Origin: Desulfatirhabdium butyrativorans DSM 18734
Lineage (GTDB): Bacteria; Desulfobacterota; Desulfobacteria; Desulfobacterales; Desulfatirhabdiaceae
DNA length: 64,000 nt
Assembly (NCBI RefSeq): GCF_000429925.1
Contig: NZ_AUCU01000015.1
Span: 62,001 to 126,000, forward strand
Direction: 5' to 3'
The position numbers were made by a program, and so were the translations under genes. Positions 1-32,988 of this stretch are shown here, one piece after another. The notes under the pieces are model-generated. The model did not search any database. It was not told the DNA's origin and was given only the letters and a program-made list of their open reading frames with translations. Every line of letters begins with the position of its first letter. The first letter of the stretch is position 1.

Positions 1-27
1 CAAGTTCATGATGAAAGGAGAATCAAT

Positions 28-96
28 ATGTCATTCAGTGAAGAAACAAAATCAAAAACGACGCCGGTCATTTTACAGAATGAAGAAAAGGCCTGA
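28..96 (+). CDS. possible 22-codon peptide
   Basis: A short frame starts at ATG 28 behind a good ribosome binding site (AAAGGAG, seven bases upstream) and ends at TGA 94-96. The product would be 22 residues, polar, with no recognisable motif. TGA triplets at 9-11 and 12-14 may be the end of an upstream gene cut by the window edge. The strong ribosome binding site is the only support. It could be a short leader, or the first codons of a gene that has decayed. Confidence 0.25.
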   Translation: MSFSEETKSKTTPVILQNEEKA

Positions 97-138
97 GGAG
101 ACGGATGAGTTTCTCCCCCGCTGACAGTTGGTCGGCGC

Positions 139-375
139 ATGCTGATTTTTCCAGACAATACAAAGGCTTCCGTATTTGGTTTGGATGATATCATGGCTGA
201 GCTCTACGCCGAAGGCAGAAAGGCGAATTATGATACTGCCGACGAGATTATCGAACGGCTGAAAAAGAAAAACAACTTTATCCCTTCGTCTGTAACTGCT
301 CATAGAGAGTATTCATTTGTTCTGTTGCAGGAATACAGAAGGTTCATTCAGGAACGATCCCAAAACGGCAGATAG
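139..375 (+). CDS. orphan N-terminal domain of a thioredoxin-like family protein
   Basis: The 78-residue product matches residues about 17-76 of the two-domain thioredoxin-like protein encoded at 3513-4019. Both share FGLDD/IGLDD, an acidic ERLKKKN/ARLSKKN stretch and a C-terminal EYRRFIQE/EYKKFVEE helix. No CxxC thioredoxin part follows, so this is a stand-alone copy of the partner domain. The start is uncertain. ATG 139 has only a weak ribosome binding site, whereas an ATG at 105 in another frame has a strong one (GAGGAG), which may point to a frameshift near the start. The gene precedes the SelW-like selenoprotein gene. The function of this domain is unknown to me. Confidence 0.55.
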   Translation: MLIFPDNTKASVFGLDDIMAELYAEGRKANYDTADEIIERLKKKNNFIPSSVTAHREYSFVLLQEYRRFIQERSQNGR

Positions 376-457
376 CGTTTTTGCCCGTTAGAAATGGAGG
401 GTAGCTGGAATACCCGTAGTAACAGGACTATTTTCGTTTGGAAAGTGAGGGCAATGG

Positions 458-757
458 ATGAATCACGATGATAAAGCGAAGATCGCAATCACTTATTGCG
501 TGGAGTGAGGGTTTTCCAAGGCTGCCGCCGGTCTGGCAGGCGCGATTGCGGAAACCTTTGGTGTTCAGGCCGAATTGATCGAGGGACACGATGGCATTTA
601 CGAGGTTGCATTGGATAACAAGCTGATTTATTCCAATGAGAAATCTTGCCGCAAGGTTCCAACGATCCCGGAAGTGCTCCAGGAAATTGGCAAACACCTG
701 CAGACGCTTCCGGGAAAGGAAATGAAGGTCATGGGGGCTTTTCCTATGGCAACATGA
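458..757 (+). CDS. SelW/Rdx-family selenoprotein with in-frame TGA (Sec)
   Basis: Translation from ATG 458 gives 99 residues if the TGA at 506-508 is read as selenocysteine. The text around it, TYCVE-U-GF, places U in the second position of the CxxU motif of the SelW/Rdx thioredoxin-like family. The downstream part (EGHDGIYEVALDNKLIYSN, then KVPTIPEVLQEI) matches the second half of that family, which carries a conserved G(V/I)(F/Y)EV...GKLI(F/Y)S block. GAGG at 446-449 is a suitable ribosome binding site. A hairpin just after the TGA has a GGTCT apical loop like the known E. coli fdhF SECIS loop. Ordinary gene finders would truncate this to a 60-codon frame from 575. The family is thought to act in thiol redox or oxidative defence. 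Confidence 0.82.
506..541 (+). promoter_or_regulatory. candidate bacterial SECIS element
   Basis: Directly after the TGA at 506-508 the coding strand can fold. CTGCC (522-526) can pair with GGCAG (535-539) around an eight-base loop. Alternatively GCC (527-529) pairs with GGC (535-537) around the loop GGTCT. The loop lies about 18-22 bases after the TGA, the spacing expected for a bacterial SECIS read by SelB. This was inspected by eye and not energy-minimised. Confidence 0.6.
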
Positions 758-2691: not shown

Positions 2692-3069
2692 ATGGAACGG
2701 TTACTCAGGATCACCAAAGCCCTTGCAGATGGAAGTCGCCTTCGCGTCGTCATGATGCTGGCGAATCATGACGAGCTCTGCGTTTGCCAGATCACGGAAT
2801 TACTCAATCTGGCCATGCCCACCGTCTCCCGCCACATGAGTGTATTGCAAAATGCCGGATTGGTCAAAAGCCGCAAAGACAGCCGATGGGTATATTACAG
2901 GCTTGCCGAAACGTTTCCCTCCCAATGCATGGCATGGCTTCAGACAGAACTGGCGGATGCGATAGAAATCGAACAGGATCGCAAAAAATTGGAAAATATC
3001 CTTTCCTACGACCTTGACGAATTGTGCAAGATGCAAAAGAAGCGTCGGATGTGCAATGCACGCGCATGA
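2692..3069 (+). CDS. arsR: ArsR/SmtB-family arsenite-type repressor
   Basis: The 125-residue product is a winged-helix repressor. The ELCVCQI segment corresponds to the alpha-3 CxC As(III)/Sb(III) site of classical ArsR (ELCVCDL). The recognition helix region LAMPTVSRHMSVLQNAGLV and the wing RKDSRWVYYRL follow. An in-frame upstream start at 2593 would add 33 low-complexity residues. ATG 2692 is preferred because AAAGGAG stands eleven bases upstream and the protein then has the usual family length. The downstream genes 3231 and 3513 are probably co-regulated. No arsenite permease or arsenate reductase gene is visible in the window. Confidence 0.88.
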   Translation: MERLLRITKALADGSRLRVVMMLANHDELCVCQITELLNLAMPTVSRHMSVLQNAGLVKSRKDSRWVYYRLAETFPSQCMAWLQTELADAIEIEQDRKKLENILSYDLDELCKMQKKRRMCNARA

Positions 3070-3230: not shown

Positions 3231-3446
3231 ATGCAGGAACTGCTCGATCAATTCAAGGCGTTGACAGATGATGAAAAAATCGCTTTCATGAAAGCGGCGA
3301 TGCCCCAGATGGCGGAAATCTTTCAAAAAGATCCGCATAAAATGATGGCTGAAATGATGCCTGCTTGCATGAGTGTGATGAAATCGAAAGGCATGCCGAT
3401 GGGAATGATGCCTTCCATGATGAAACAGATGATGGGGGAGTCTTGA
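3231..3446 (+). CDS. methionine-rich small protein
   Basis: The 71-residue product is largely helical, with an amphipathic N-terminus (MQELLDQFKALTDDEKIAF) and a very Met-rich C-terminal half that includes GMPMGMMPSMMKQMMGES. The ribosome binding site GGAGAAGGAGG just before ATG 3231 is strong. It lies between arsR and the thioredoxin-like gene on the same strand. Clusters of Met often bind soft metals such as Cu(I) or Hg(II), and a role in metal or metalloid handling is only an inference from this and the location. I know no family for it. Confidence 0.7.
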   Translation: MQELLDQFKALTDDEKIAFMKAAMPQMAEIFQKDPHKMMAEMMPACMSVMKSKGMPMGMMPSMMKQMMGES

Positions 3447-3512: not shown

Positions 3513-4019
3513 ATGCCATCTTATGATGTCAAACAAATTATGGTGGGCGGGCAACGAACCGGCATTATCGGCTTGGATGACGTGTTGAAGGATGTGGCGA
3601 GTGAATTTGTCGGCCGATCGGATGCCGAGATAGAAGCCGAACTGCTTGCCCGGCTTTCCAAGAAGAACTATATCTATGACAAAATCAAGGATCAGTATGC
3701 AAAAGCCTTTCTTCGGGAATACAAAAAATTTGTAGAAGAGCCGTTTGAAGAGGCCAAAAGCGATTGTATCCAGATCAAAATCCTCGGTCCCGGTTGCCCC
3801 AATTGTCGAAAGCTCGAGCAGGATGTCATGGCTTTGGTGGCGGAAAACCATATCCAGGCGGACATCGAGCATGTGACGGATCTGAAAGACATCGCAAGCT
3901 ACGGGGTGATCGGATCACCGGCGCTGATCATCGATGGCATCGTGATGGCCGTAGGGAACATGCCGCAAAAATCCAAGCTCATGGAATGGCTGGTGAAGGC
4001 TGCAGGTGAGCGGAAATAA
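3513..4019 (+). CDS. two-domain thioredoxin-like (MTH895/TM0996 type) protein
   Basis: The 168-residue protein has an N-terminal helical domain (about 1-77, shared with the orphan protein at 139-375) and a C-terminal small thioredoxin fold. The fold has the redox motif GPGCPNCRKLE (Cys95 and Cys98), a cis-proline motif GSPALIIDG and a final helix. This is the style of the small glutaredoxin-like redox-active disulfide proteins often found in arsR operons beside permeases. The start ATG 3513 follows AAAGGAG. It is likely the electron donor in an arsenic or metal stress operon; the partner reductase is not visible. Confidence 0.82.
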   Translation: MPSYDVKQIMVGGQRTGIIGLDDVLKDVASEFVGRSDAEIEAELLARLSKKNYIYDKIKDQYAKAFLREYKKFVEEPFEEAKSDCIQIKILGPGCPNCRKLEQDVMALVAENHIQADIEHVTDLKDIASYGVIGSPALIIDGIVMAVGNMPQKSKLMEWLVKAAGERK

Positions 4020-4042: not shown

Positions 4043-5182
4043 ATGAAGGATTTCAAAGCCATGTCTGCCAACGTCATTCAACAACTGCTTTCCCAGGCGG
4101 GTGTGAGCGTCAACGGCGAAAACCCCTGGGACCCACGGATTTACACCCCCCATGTGTACGACCGGATGTTGCGGGACCGAAACCTGGGCCTCGGCGAAGC
4201 TTACATGGACGGGTGGTGGGACTGTGAGCGGCTGGACCAATTCTTCTGCCGCATCCTCAACAGCGATATCGAAGCCAAAGTCACCAGCGATTTGCGGTAT
4301 CTGATCCGCCTGCTGCCCGCCATCATCTTCAACCTGCAGTCCAGGGCTCGCTCCCGCATCATCGCCAGGCGGCATTACGATCTCGGAAACGATCTCTTCT
4401 TTTCCTTTCTGGATGGCTACCGCCAATACAGTTGCGCCTATTTTCAAGAAACGGACGATCTGGATCGGGCGCAACAGATCAAAATGGAGATGATCTGCCG
4501 GAAGCTCGACCTGAAGCCTTCAGACAAGGTATTGGATATCGGATGCGGATGGGGGGGATTGGCGAAGTATATGGCGGAGCGCTCGGGCTGCTCGGTTACC
4601 GGCGTGAACATTTCCAAAGAGCAGCTCGGCTATGCCCGGGAATTCTGCAGGGGGCTACCCATCACGTTTCTGGATTGTGATTACCGAGCCGTTACAGGCA
4701 GCTTCGATAAAATCGTATCCGTCGGCATGTTCGAGCATGTCGGCTGCAAGAATTACCGGACATTCATGCGGGTGGTTCGTCGCTGCCTGAAACCGGACGG
4801 CATCTTTCTGCTGCACACTATCGGGGGCAACATCTCCCAGACCAGTTGTGACCCCTGGATCGACCGCTACATCTTTCCCAACGGCATGCTGCCCAGCATC
4901 GCTCAGATCGCCAGGGCCTGCGAAGGGCTTTTCGTCATCGAGGACTGGCACAACCTGGGTCCTCACTATGACAAGACGCTCATGGCCTGGAACGCCAACT
5001 TTCAGCAAAATTGGCCGACGCTGCAATCGCGATACGACGAACGATTCCGGCGGATGTGGACGTATTACCTGCTTTCCTGCGCAGGTGCCTTCCGCGCCCG
5101 GAACATCCAGGTGTGGCAGATCGTCATGTCACCGGTCGGGGCAAGCCAGCCCGCCTGGATGACCGGGGGCCGATCCTGGTGA
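4043..5182 (+). CDS. cfa: cyclopropane-fatty-acyl-phospholipid synthase
   Basis: The 379-residue product is a SAM-dependent methyltransferase that adds a methylene bridge to unsaturated acyl chains of membrane phospholipids. Family marks are the N-terminal region (WDPRIYTPHVYDRML...GLGEAYMDGWW), RRHYDLGNDLFFSFLD, the SAM-binding loop VLDIGCGWGGLAKYMAE (about residues 161-177), SVGMFEHVG and the C-terminal block NLGPHYDKTLMAWNANF. The length is normal. It follows the thioredoxin-like gene by 23 bp on the same strand. Cfa is commonly a stress and stationary-phase enzyme. Confidence 0.95.
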   Translation: MKDFKAMSANVIQQLLSQAGVSVNGENPWDPRIYTPHVYDRMLRDRNLGLGEAYMDGWWDCERLDQFFCRILNSDIEAKVTSDLRYLIRLLPAIIFNLQSRARSRIIARRHYDLGNDLFFSFLDGYRQYSCAYFQETDDLDRAQQIKMEMICRKLDLKPSDKVLDIGCGWGGLAKYMAERSGCSVTGVNISKEQLGYAREFCRGLPITFLDCDYRAVTGSFDKIVSVGMFEHVGCKNYRTFMRVVRRCLKPDGIFLLHTIGGNISQTSCDPWIDRYIFPNGMLPSIAQIARACEGLFVIEDWHNLGPHYDKTLMAWNANFQQNWPTLQSRYDERFRRMWTYYLLSCAGAFRARNIQVWQIVMSPVGASQPAWMTGGRSW

Positions 5183-5378: not shown

Positions 5379-5585
5379 TCAGGATTTCGGATTGGCTTCA
5401 GGGCCCGAGAGCTTTTCGGTCTTTTCCGTCTCGACTTCTTTTCCGCTCTCTTCCATCGATTTCTTGAAGTTGCGGATGCCCTTGCCGAGTCCCTCGCCGA
5501 TTTGCGGAAGTTTGCCCGGCCCGAAGATGATCATGACGATGACGAGAACCACGATCCAATGCCATATGGAAGTCATACCGAACAT
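5379..5585 (-). CDS. tatA: Sec-independent translocase subunit TatA/TatE
   Basis: The 68-residue protein has the classical TatA plan: one N-terminal membrane helix (WHWIVVLVIVMIIFGPGKLP), the FGPGKLP hinge, an amphipathic helix (IGEGLGKGIRNFKKSMEE) and a charged tail. It forms part of the pore that exports folded proteins with twin-arginine signals; the TRAP binding protein at 13571 carries such a signal. AGAAGGAG precedes ATG 5585. No tatB or tatC lies nearby. Confidence 0.93.
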   Translation of the reverse strand: MFGMTSIWHWIVVLVIVMIIFGPGKLPQIGEGLGKGIRNFKKSMEESGKEVETEKTEKLSGPEANPKS

Positions 5586-7899: not shown

Positions 7900-8507
7900 C
7901 ATTCAGAAAGACCCTCGAGGACGTCTGAGCCGATGCTACTGTTCGCGGCATCCTTCCCGACGCGCTGGTCACGGTCGTCAGCGTGATCTGGCACGGGTCG
8001 GAAGCCCTGACCCTCGTGTATCGCTCCCCTGACGGTCGCATTGCCGACGAAATCCTCTACCGCCATGACGAAGCGCGCCTCGAGATCGTCGAACAGGGCC
8101 GCCCCTGGAGCTTCGACGCCGATGGTGCGCTGTTCCGTCTTGTAGCGGAAGCCCGACGCATCCGCTTGGCGCACCTCTTCGATCCAGTGCTGGCGGTGCA
8201 CACGTCGCTCGTCGAGCCGTTGCCGCACCAGATCCCGGCGGTCTATGAGGCCATGTTGCCTCGACAGCCGCTGCGCTTCCTGCTTGCAGACGATCCGGGC
8301 GCCGGAAAAACCATCATGGCGGGCCTCCTCATGAAGGAGCTGATCGCCCGGGGCGACCTCAAACGCTGCCTCATCGTCTGTCCCGGCAACCTGGTGGAGC
8401 AGTGGCAGGACGAGTTATATCACCGCTTTCACCTTCCGTTTGAGATCATGACCAACGACAAGCTGGAGGCGGCACGTACCGGAAACTGGTTCCAGGAAAA
8501 TGACCTG
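7900..8507 (+). pseudogene. N-terminal fragment of a SNF2-type (BREX HII-like) helicase
   Basis: The reading phase shared with the ORF from 7983 shows LEDV, then an in-frame TGA (7927-7929), then ADATVRGILPDALVTVVSV. This fits the N-terminus of SNF2-like helicases interrupted by a nonsense codon. The fragment continues with LLADDPGAGKTIMAGLLMKEL (motif I) and LIVCPGNLVEQWQDEL (motif Ia), then stops matching after TGNWFQENDL and passes in frame into an unrelated ATPase. Later helicase motifs are absent. The base composition is clearly more GC-rich than the neighbours. It is a non-functional remnant of an acquired defence-type locus. Confidence 0.75.
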
Positions 8508-9598
8508 GCTATCGTGCGCCGTCGGCTGTTCGAGCCTTTGGCGCGTCCGGACGCATTCAAGCAGCGCGACGTGACGGCACGGGCGTTTGCCGACCTCTAC
8601 CGTGCGCAGGCGGCCGAATTCCCTGCCGAGTGCAAAACCGGCGACTACGAGAAGCGCATCCAGGCCGCCTACCCCATCCACCCGCTGCCGCGCTCGAACG
8701 CCGACGTGCCTGAAGATTCAAAAGTGGGGCTGGTCGTGCTGTCGGCGGAGCATCCCTACACGAAGGAGCCCGGCAATGCGGCGGAAGTCTCGGCGCAGGC
8801 GATTCTCGAGTCACGCGGCAACACCCCGCGTTTGTACCGCAACACGCTGGTGTTTCTTGCAGCCGATAAGGTGCGTCTGCAGGACCTCGACGAGGAGCTG
8901 CGCCGGTTCCGGGCTTGGGAGTCGATCCTGGCGGAGAAGGAGACGCTTAACCTGGACCCGCACCAGGTGCGTCAGGCCGAGACGCAGAAGCAGGCCGCCG
9001 ATGGCACGGTGACGGCTCGGTTGCCCGAAACCTACCAATGGCTGCTCGTGCCGGAGCAGACGAACCCGCAGGCACCGATGAGGTGGCAGGCCGTGCGACT
9101 TTCGGGGAGTGATGCGCTCGCCGTGCGGGCGAGCAAGAAACTCAAGAACGACGAGATGCTGATCACGAGTTTCGCCGCTTCGCGGCTTCGCATGGAACTC
9201 GATCGTGTGCCGCTTTGGCGTGGCGACAGATGGATGCCGAGATGATAACGTCATCGGACCCGGGGGCCGGGCTCAGGTCCCAGCCGGGTCTCGGTCCCGG
9301 ACCAGGGGCCGATTCGATGTCGGAATCCGATTCCGCACCGCAACTGCAGCCGCCGGAACGCCGACTCCGGCGCTACCATGGCACGGTCCAGCTCGATCCC
9401 GAACGTGTCGGGCGGGATGCCGGCCGGATCGCCGACGAGGTGATCGCCCATCTGGCCGGCCATGTGGGCGCGGAAGTCACGGTAACCCTCGAGATCGAAG
9501 CGAAGTTTCCAGACGGGGCTTCAGAGCAGATCGTCCGGGTCGTGACGGAGAACAGCCAAACGTTGAAGTTCACGAGTCATGGATTCGAGAGCGAGTAG
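8508..9598 (+). pseudogene. internally deleted DUF499 (BrxC/PglY-like) ATPase remnant
   Basis: From about 8508 the sequence reads AIVRRRLFEPLARPDAFKQ...YEKRIQAAYPIHP, a piece of the middle of a DUF499 protein. It then jumps at about 8684 to a C-terminal region (LVVLSAEHPYTKEPGN...SPRLYRNTLVFLAAD-like). The frame ends at 9245, and the true C-terminus (RRYHGTVQLDPERVGRDAGRIADEV...FTSHGF) continues in another frame to 9598. The normal protein is around 1000 residues, so most of it, including the P-loop, is missing. DUF499 proteins are the ATPases of BREX-like systems; the family match is from memory of conserved blocks. Confidence 0.7.
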
Positions 9599-9647
9599 AT
9601 CGTGGGCAGTGGGTGATCGGTGATGGGCGATAGGGGCTCACTCGATT

Positions 9648-11216
9648 TCAACATGGGGAGCTGACGTCCGTTTGGATCCGCTCCCATTCGAAGCCGACGA
9701 TGTTTCGGTCGGCGCTGCTGAATTCGACACCGATCAGAAAGATGGCATCGGCCTGGCCCCGATACCGCTCCCAGTAACGCATCTTGCGGATTTGGTCCAG
9801 GGCTGTGTGGGCGCTGCCATCGATTTCCACAACCTTGAACTCCAGGATGAACACCCGCCCCCCGAGCCGCACGGCCATGTCGATCCGACCCTTGTTCGTC
9901 ATCTGCTCGGCCGTGACATCGAGCCCCAGCGCCGTGAAATAGCAGTAAAAAATCGATGCATAATAGCCTTCGTATCTGGAGGACTCGTTTTTCCGGTACC
10001 ACTCATAGGGGATCGAGGCGAAAAAGGCGTGAAAGATGTCCCGGAGCTGGTCCAGGTCTGCCGCCTCCAGGCAGCGATAGAGCCGGATGCGGTTTCGGGT
10101 CTGTTCGGCGGTGGAATTCGTGAGATAGCGAAGCAGGTGTTCGGTCAGGCTTTTTTTGACCTCGAGATTGGGATAGACAAGCGTGTAGAGCCTGTCGCTT
10201 CCGAGCACCGCCCAATCTTTGATCGTCAGATAACCGGTTTGAAATAGAAGCGTGTCGAGCTGAATGTCGTCGATATCGAAGGAGGAAAGGATCGCTTCGG
10301 ATGCTTCAATGGTTTCGATATCGGGTGCGGGATATTGCCTTTCGGTAATGAGCTTGATCAGAAAGCTGGGGCTTCCGGTCTCGAACCAGTAGTTTCGAAA
10401 TTCTTTCGTGTCCAAAAACAACAGGATATCGAAGGGATTGTAGACCCGATCTCCCAGGAAATTGTACCCGTCGTACCAACGCCTGACTTCCTCCAGGTTT
10501 ACCCCGTCCAGCCTTTCGGCGAAGGTATGGATCAGTTCTTCATGCGTATAGCCGCAGACAGTGGCGGCCATCGGATCCAGGGTGATGTCCTGCAAATTGT
10601 TCAATCCGCTGAAGAGCGAGACCTTGCTGAACTTGCTCACTCCCGTAATGAAGACGAATTTCAGGAATTCGTCGGAATCCTTGATGACCGAATAGAAATT
10701 TTTGAGTCCTTCGCGGATTTCGACGGCCATCTGCGGCTTGTCGATGTGGTCGAGGATGGGCTTGTCGTATTCGTCGATCAGGATGACCACAGGTTGATGG
10801 TGACGGGTATACAGGGCACGGATGAGCTCAAAAAACCGCTCCCGCAGGTTTTGCTCCAGGAGCATCACATCCCCGTTTTCTGCATTGATTTTAAGGATAT
10901 AGGCAAAACGCTCCCCCAGATCCTCGATATCTTGGATTACACCGCTTCCGAAGCTGATGTGAATGACCGGATACCGGGTGTCCCAATCCCAGTTGTTTTC
11001 CAGATACAGACCGGAAAACAATTCTTTCCTGGCGAAAAAGGCCTGCCTCAGGGTATCCAGAAAGAGGGATTTTCCGAAGCGCCGGGGCCGGGAAAGAAAG
11101 TAATAGCCACCTCCCTTGTTGACGAGCTCGGCCACCATGGCGGTCTTGTCGACGTAGTAGAAATTGCCTTGCCGCATTTTGACGAAGCTCTGAATGCCGA
11201 TGGGAAGCTTTTTCAT
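9648..11216 (-). CDS. AAA-ATPase-like / PD-(D/E)XK nuclease-family protein, copy 2
   Basis: The 522-residue product is a paralogue of the protein at 5897-7441. The first about 85 residues and the last about 130 are almost identical, while the middle (about 95-145 and 285-390) differs strongly. It keeps the P-loop-like SRPRRFGKS, VVILIDEYDKPIL and the GRIDMAV...FILEFKVV nuclease core. The C-terminus is longer by eight residues (QTDVSSPC). The mosaic pattern suggests gene conversion or domain shuffling between copies. The start ATG 11216 gives the conserved MKKLPIGIQSF. Function is unknown. Confidence 0.85.
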   Translation of the reverse strand: MKKLPIGIQSFVKMRQGNFYYVDKTAMVAELVNKGGGYYFLSRPRRFGKSLFLDTLRQAFFARKELFSGLYLENNWDWDTRYPVIHISFGSGVIQDIEDLGERFAYILKINAENGDVMLLEQNLRERFFELIRALYTRHHQPVVILIDEYDKPILDHIDKPQMAVEIREGLKNFYSVIKDSDEFLKFVFITGVSKFSKVSLFSGLNNLQDITLDPMAATVCGYTHEELIHTFAERLDGVNLEEVRRWYDGYNFLGDRVYNPFDILLFLDTKEFRNYWFETGSPSFLIKLITERQYPAPDIETIEASEAILSSFDIDDIQLDTLLFQTGYLTIKDWAVLGSDRLYTLVYPNLEVKKSLTEHLLRYLTNSTAEQTRNRIRLYRCLEAADLDQLRDIFHAFFASIPYEWYRKNESSRYEGYYASIFYCYFTALGLDVTAEQMTNKGRIDMAVRLGGRVFILEFKVVEIDGSAHTALDQIRKMRYWERYRGQADAIFLIGVEFSSADRNIVGFEWERIQTDVSSPC

Positions 11217-32912: not shown

Positions 32913-32988
32913 GCGGGCATAGCTCAGTTGGTAGAGTACAAGCTTCCCAAGCTTGGTGTCGCGAGTTCGAATCTCGTTGCCCGCTCCA
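32913..32988 (+). tRNA. tRNA-Gly (anticodon CCC)
   Basis: The 76-base gene folds as a cloverleaf. The acceptor stem is GCGGGCA with TGCCCGC, the D arm GCTC/GAGT, the anticodon stem CAAGC/GCTTG around TTCCCAA (anticodon CCC, read for GGG), and the T arm GCGAG/CTCGT with TTCGAAT. CCA is encoded (32986-32988). It stands upstream of rimP-nusA-infB, the position that metY has in E. coli. Confidence 0.95.

Follow-up and report, generated by a model that had tools for sequence, protein, structure and literature searches.

A probable SelW/Rdx-type selenoprotein gene beside an apparent double-selenocysteine gene in an arsenic-resistance cluster of Desulfatirhabdium butyrativorans

Results

The window, by which we mean the whole 64,000-nucleotide stretch of Desulfatirhabdium butyrativorans DSM 18734 DNA analysed here (assembly GCF_000429925.1, contig NZ_AUCU01000015.1, positions 62,001 to 126,000 of the forward strand), carries close to its left end an Rdx/SelW-type gene with one in-frame TGA, a preceding small gene with two such codons, and genes of an arsenic-resistance (ars) cluster. 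The features are collected in Table 1.

Table 1. Features of the left end of the window, with the evidence for each
Feature	Positions	Strand	Evidence
Likely ribosome binding site (GGAG) for the double-Sec gene	17..20	+	sequence
Apparent double-selenocysteine (double-Sec) small protein gene, 115 aa, UGDGU motif	28..375	+	two in-frame TGAs; homologues with two TGAs
First in-frame TGA of the double-Sec gene	94..96	+	present in 46 of the 47 loci read besides the window
Second in-frame TGA of the double-Sec gene	106..108	+	present in all 47 loci read besides the window
SECIS-like hairpin of the double-Sec gene, loop AGUUG at 126-130	119..137	+	18-locus comparison; consensus fold
Likely ribosome binding site (GAGG) for the Rdx gene	447..450	+	sequence; 7-base spacer to ATG 458
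Probable Rdx/SelW-type selenoprotein gene, 99 aa, CVEUGF clade	458..757	+	PF10262, E 1.1e-12; TIGR02174 over cut-off
In-frame TGA, putative selenocysteine codon (CxxU)	506..508	+	TGA at 29 of the order's 30 places, window included; Cys at one
SECIS-like hairpin of the Rdx gene, apical loop GGUCU at 530-534	521..543	+	predicted fold; conserved beyond synonymous permutation in 29 sequences
ArsR-family repressor	2692..3069	+	HTH_5 and NF033788 over cut-offs
Met-rich 71-aa protein, no family over cut-off, recurrent double-Sec neighbour	3231..3446	+	tblastn
MTH895/ArsE-type thioredoxin fused to an N-terminal double-Sec-like domain	3513..4019	+	TIGR00412 over cut-off

The exporter of the cluster lies upstream, outside the window (positions 8331-9722 of stretch L009), and is of the ACR3 type (441.7 bits against a cut-off of 282.8); it carries a fused N-terminal ArsD domain (PF06953, 56.3 against 27), which scored 45.5 with NF033727, below the cut-off of 90 for that model. 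An ArsR repressor, an arsenite exporter and arsenic redox or chaperone genes, the components by which an ars module is recognized, are thus found together. Relatives of the Met-rich protein were detected near double-Sec genes in L065, L072, L076, L108, L109, L111, L112, L114 and L116, and near an Rdx gene in L088. Directly after the ArsE-type fusion there is a gene for cyclopropane fatty acyl phospholipid synthase (4043-5182; NF008686 over cut-off), and an ORF that is similar by eye to this synthase stands beside the double-Sec gene of L065. A TatA/B/E-type protein of 68 residues is encoded at 5379-5585 on the minus strand (PF02416 over cut-off), and a tRNA gene at 32913-32985 was the sole Rfam match of the window at the gathering threshold. 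Just upstream of the window, at about 9740-10000 of L009, we observed a remnant-like stretch with pieces in different frames; these match L081 915-1163 and L065 4540-4641 by tblastn, and the stretch resembles by eye the start of an unmatched 421-residue ORF at L076 6360-7622.

Promoter and terminator scans of the region returned about as many sites as did shuffled sequences and lent no support to an operon; co-transcription of the double-Sec and Rdx genes is therefore argued from gene order and the 82-base gap between them.

With the TGA at 506-508 read as selenocysteine (U), the Rdx product would be MNHDDKAKIAITYCVEUGFSKAAAGLAGAIAETFGVQAELIEGHDGIYEVALDNKLIYSNEKSCRKVPTIPEVLQEIGKHLQTLPGKEMKVMGAFPMAT, and the frame remains open past this codon as far as the TGA at 755-757. 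The latter is probably a true stop, because close homologues end there too, with TGA, TAA or TAG, and the closest of them retain the downstream part up to a final FPMA- or FPL-like end. By Pfam (PF10262, 48.4 bits against a cut-off of 22.6) and TIGR02174 (37.9 against 34.2) the protein is a member of the Rdx family, while its score with the narrower NF041051 (SelTWH_Campy), 49.4 bits, falls below the cut-off of 88. A profile of the Rdx clade described below matched solved chains, among them Atu0228 (2fa8, E 2e-7), C17orf37 (2ljk, E 4e-7) and a selenoprotein W-related protein (2p0g, E 0.008). A preliminary description of this DNA had placed the TGA at the selenocysteine position of CxxU (YCVE-U-GF), had followed family-like sequence in frame to 757, had noted a ribosome binding site before ATG 458 and had predicted that ordinary annotation would yield a truncated protein. 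All of this was borne out, the last point by a mechanical ORF listing that contained nothing of the gene beyond a 60-residue tail at 575-757.

The genome, of 4.48 Mb in 73 contigs, contains the four genes for which the same description had advised a search: selC (tRNA-Sec match of 77.1 bits, called tRNA-SeC with anticodon TCA), selB (356 bits), selA (608 bits) and selD (375 bits, with one TGA inside). The selD gene (G000:C2:142842-143768, L020) is itself a selenoprotein gene, its in-frame TGA reading GAGUASK, which we take to be the classical selenocysteine place of SelD.

Rdx homologues were found in 29 of 291 genomes of the order, at 30 places, window included. At 29 of these a TGA lies inside the match, always at the second position of CxxU, that is, at the place of the second Cys of CxxC; the one Cys form, L062, reads YCITCNY. 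With selC present and the downstream part conserved, these findings are the reverse of those that the preliminary description had named as grounds for giving up its reading. In the phylum, 54 of 395 genomes gave one match each, and a TGA was counted within the match at 51 of the 54 places, not all of which were read individually. A further observation concerns L064 (G021:C193:9194-9466), an ars-linked relative in which UxxU replaces CxxU (YUVEUGF), so that it has two in-frame TGAs.

In a tree of 40 Rdx proteins, built on 78 columns, few for that number of rows, ten [VL]EUG[FY] sequences form one clade with support of 97/92. The motif of this ars-linked clade is Y[CU][VL]EUG[FY]; an eleventh member, L042/L088 (YCVEUGF), is partly masked in sequence and was kept outside the tree. 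We compared stretches of 7.6 to 15 kb around ten clade members with stretches of 9 to 16 kb around 16 of the order's 21 non-clade places (L090-L094 and L155-L165, L094 being the Cys form). By tblastn, at least one of ACR3, ArsR and the ArsE-type fusion was found in L081-L088 and L166, which is 9 of 10 clade loci without the window, or 10 of 11 with it; the window is no independent case, its own ars genes having served as queries, and in L085 the linkage consists of an ArsR match alone. L081 holds ACR3, ArsR and a match over cut-off to an arsenite methyltransferase model. No ars gene was detected within about 6.5 kb of the remaining clade member, L127/L167. In contrast, none of the 16 loci outside the clade had a match to ACR3, ArsR or the ArsE-type fusion. 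By tree and neighbourhood, then, the window Rdx is assigned to a supported clade that is attached to arsenic-resistance loci.

The preliminary description had also pointed to a hairpin with a GGTCT loop after the TGA. Such a hairpin is predicted at 521-543, and it is by comparison that it becomes convincing. When 51 bases from the TGA were folded and set against dinucleotide shuffles, the window hairpin hardly exceeded shuffled sequence (z of -1.16; mean of 29 sequences, -0.70). As the fold z did not discriminate, we turned to a comparative test that holds the protein fixed by permuting synonymous codons among the sequences. Over 29 sequences in register, 148 of 174 cells of the six pairs were paired, against 136.3 +/- 2.0 under permutation, and the inner five pairs were intact in 23 of 29, against 11.8 +/- 1.9; on either measure 0 of 2000 permutations were as high, a count that is not a probability, as the 29 sequences are kin. 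At other offsets the five-pair stem pairs in 0.14 to 0.72 of cells, compared with 0.94 in place, and some pairs differ in both of their bases among the 29 homologues. Six sequences, the window among them, are short of one pair in the common register, and the predicted stem of the window has a bulged A. As judged by this test, the hairpin is conserved beyond the constraint of the protein.

The gene at 28-375 encodes, around its two TGAs, ...NEEKAUGDGUVSPPLTVGRRML.... Between the part after the second TGA and its counterpart in the nearest relative, dN is 0.087 and dS 0.70 by NG86 (a ratio of about 0.12), and 0.098 and 0.48 by YN00 (about 0.21); these values indicate that purifying selection acts downstream of the second TGA. 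No NCBIfam model matched the double-Sec protein at E 1 or better when 9 members were scanned. With Pfam, 6 members had matches below cut-off only, and 3 others had no match at E 0.01. Table 1 of PMC13188914, with 119 families or subfamilies as counted there, contains neither the UxDGU motif nor the protein, and the families of that paper's references 63-65 are covered here as far as NCBIfam models of them exist. At the level of titles and abstract openings, the literature searched contained nothing on ars-linked Rdx selenoproteins or on this double-Sec family. ORF 28-375 appears to be a second selenoprotein gene, apparently of an uncatalogued family with two selenocysteines.

We searched for relatives of this protein at several depths. 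In the order, 11 of 291 genomes gave matches; 6 of these, window included, are full-length and each have two TGAs, and the remainder are ArsE-type fusions without the arm that bears the selenocysteines. A scan of the genomes of 84,980 species yielded 16 loci in 15 genomes, the hosts being named Deltaproteobacteria or their families, apart from one host in the Nitrospiraceae and a Spirochaetes MAG; each of the 16 loci has a pair of TGAs in its motif (UxDGU in 13, UADGGU in one and UVGU in two). In the phylum the profile matched 67 of 395 genomes at E 0.001, many of them through ArsE-type fusions, which, like many of the weaker matches, have frames of about 170 residues or more. Among the best 30 phylum loci minus the window, 28 of 29 have two TGAs (UxDGU, UVGU, UxxU, UKGGEU or UAGGCU); 19 of the 29 were read by pattern and 10 by coordinates, with start codons chosen by eye. 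The exception, L112 (G597:C75:24978-25241), is the sole member read in which the first selenocysteine position is altered (LITU). A search of the class at E 1e-12 found matches in 7 of 379 genomes; each has two TGAs, and G721 alone was new.

In all, 47 double-Sec loci besides the window were read (the 16 loci L065-L080, L025, the 29 phylum loci and L173), with two TGAs in 46 and one TGA in one. Several loci bear more than one label (L065=L024=L169, L071=L026=L171, L076=L028=L172, L077=L027=L170, L025=L168), and L095, whose protein is that of L068, is apparently the same place. Neither these 47 loci nor the scan of 84,980 species contained a Cys form, and the peptide patterns of the scan were drawn from rows with C in place of U, so that near Cys relatives should have been caught. 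A plasmid search with one relative found none. Co-occurrence with tRNA-Sec was uninformative, as 32 of 34 double-Sec genomes and 182 of 198 phylum genomes have a match that reaches the cut-off; stricter filters applied to the 198, and one of the 32 is at the cut-off itself, 47.0 bits. In L103 (G507:C21) the core domain recurs on its own just downstream of the double-Sec gene, in a frame of 112 residues with no selenocysteine arm in the match; this additional copy was not counted as an ars gene.

The hairpin of the double-Sec gene was examined in the same manner. Over 18 loci, L067 included, 108 of 126 cells pair, where permutation gives 103.2 +/- 1.4 (5 of 2000 as high), and the inner five pairs are complete in 15 of 18 loci, where permutation gives 9.7 +/- 1.3 (0 of 2000 as high). 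The consensus fold of 21 UxDGU loci, taken from the first TGA, contained the hairpin at 119-137 alone. For the UxxU and UVGU loci, 18 of 21 were folded and judged by eye; a predicted hairpin of the kind CCGACAGUUAGUCGG was present at similar distance in 15, and was not seen in the predicted folds of L111, L115 and L117.

ACR3 was found in the stretch at 9 of the 16 scan loci (flanks of at most 6 kb, shorter near contig ends) and at 14 of the 29 phylum loci (flanks up to 1.5 kb); when ArsR, the ArsE-type fusion and ArsD are included, the counts are 12 of 16 and 17 of 29. The other four scan loci, L070, L071, L073 and L076, had no match to the ars query genes. A CVEUGF-type Rdx beside a double-Sec gene was seen in the window only. 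In both L079 and L108 the ACR3-like exporter encoded upstream of the double-Sec gene has CKP as its last residues; a TGA comes next, beyond which the frame continues with (A)GGKS, and this TGA is probably a plain stop.

The core of the double-Sec protein is modelled as a beta hairpin and three helices, with a mean pLDDT of 76.7; the value is below 50 for residues 1-22 and averages about 51 over residues 21-30, which hold the selenocysteine pair. When this model was compared with PDB folds, 75 matches were obtained at E 10 and no match reached E 0.001; searching PDB sequences with a profile yielded two, at E 0.2 and 0.49. The ArsE-type fusion of the window has a homologue of this core as its N-terminal domain (profile E 1.2e-7).

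Discussion

We consider it highly probable that 458-757 is a genuine SelW/Rdx selenoprotein gene of the ars clade, probably co-transcribed with the preceding double-Sec gene. Its UGA would be decoded as selenocysteine by the products of selA, selB, selC and selD, helped by the hairpin just downstream, yielding a protein of thioredoxin fold in which CVEU forms the redox pair. In the product of 28-375, a flexible arm at the N terminus would carry two selenocysteines. We infer from these comparisons that the UGAs are read as selenocysteine in vivo. The selenoprotein interpretation of the preliminary description is thus supported, and is correct without being new in kind; that description was silent on the arsenic context and on the double-UGA gene next door.

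It could be argued instead that the TGAs are real stops, both ORFs being pseudogenes or products of sequencing error from which only fragments are made. Ordinary ORF calling does yield only fragments, and at about 9740-10000 of L009, immediately before the double-Sec gene, there is a stretch that by eye resembles a remnant. Against this, TGA occupies the same codon in independent genomes, sequence beyond the second TGA of 28-375 appears to be under purifying selection (dN 0.087, dS 0.70, NG86), and the sel machinery of the genome is complete. We rejected this possibility, which the comparative data contradict, and regard it as very improbable. Hardly worth entertaining is the proposal that UGA is read as an ordinary amino acid under a changed genetic code. 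The frames would be open for any residue at TGA, which is trivial, whereas the presence of tRNA-Sec, selA, selB and selD, the TGA of SelD at GAGUASK, the position of the Rdx TGA exactly at CxxC, and the apparent use of TGA as terminator by Rdx and homologous genes all contradict it, and on these grounds it too was rejected.

A more serious alternative accepts a true Rdx selenoprotein and assigns it to general redox or peroxide defence, the ars neighbourhood being due to chance or to hitch-hiking in mobile resistance islands. Ars clusters do move between lineages, and the other 16 Rdx selenoproteins compared had no ars neighbours, so that the family has other roles; moreover, section 9 of PMC13188914 describes selenoprotein genes of the Prx and SELENOW-like kinds clustered in operons. 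Yet the ars linkage tracks one clade (10 of 11) and not the other Rdx loci (0 of 16), and we judge this alternative to be unlikely.

If the Rdx selenoprotein does serve arsenic detoxification, it might act as a selenol/thiol oxidoreductase that reduces or relays arsenic-thiol species or a partner protein, for instance the ArsE-type thioredoxin. The affinity of selenols for As(III) is high, and the double-Sec protein might capture As(III) through its paired selenols and hand it to ACR3, as ArsD does with cysteines. These roles are suggested through guilt by association, and we put the arsenic chemistry forward tentatively, rating its chances at a little below even. With similar reserve, and as a possibility that we would not yet favour over its opposite, we propose that anaerobes carry a selenium-based arsenic module that comprises an ars-specific SelW clade and a family of double-Sec carriers of As(III) of which no Cys form is seen, the latter with one conserved hairpin for two UGAs spaced 9 to 15 bases apart.

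The Rdx gene itself is of a known family, and what is added is the arsenic clade and, to a greater degree, the neighbouring double-Sec gene. Standard annotation splits selenoprotein genes, and here two consecutive ones would go missing from an arsenic-resistance cluster. The ars-linked clade offers a testable role for the bacterial SelW family, which is functionally uncharacterised. The presence of two selenocysteines in nearly every double-Sec member, with no Cys form among those read, suggests a chemistry in which thiols do not replace them. SelB is understood to require a hairpin close to each UGA, and the double-Sec gene would be a clean system in which to ask how SelB decodes two close UGAs with a single conserved hairpin.

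Several known systems invite comparison. ArsD carries As(III) by cysteines, and it has these where the double-Sec protein has selenocysteines. Like ArsD and the ArsE-type thioredoxin (TIGR00412), the double-Sec protein is a small protein of ars clusters; unlike them, it has no thioredoxin domain and no ArsD match. Two selenocysteines are likewise present in the catalogued multi-Sec proteins MbdU (NF045648), TsoB (NF045694, UxxxxU), the UxxU metal-binding protein of NF041115 and the FmdB-type UxxU protein, several of which share the arrangement of the pair in a short motif; 28-375 and its relatives differ from these in having no NCBIfam match and in a UxDGU motif that lies outside Table 1 of PMC13188914. 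The same Table 1 lists SELENOW-like proteins (PF10262, CxxU) as a prokaryotic selenoprotein family that is already known, and the window Rdx is like these in its Rdx domain, CxxU motif, size and selenocysteine position. It differs from them in belonging to a separate clade with the motif [VL]EUG[FY] and in its location beside ars genes, and most members of that clade have, in addition, an extra C-terminal segment with an FPMA-like end.
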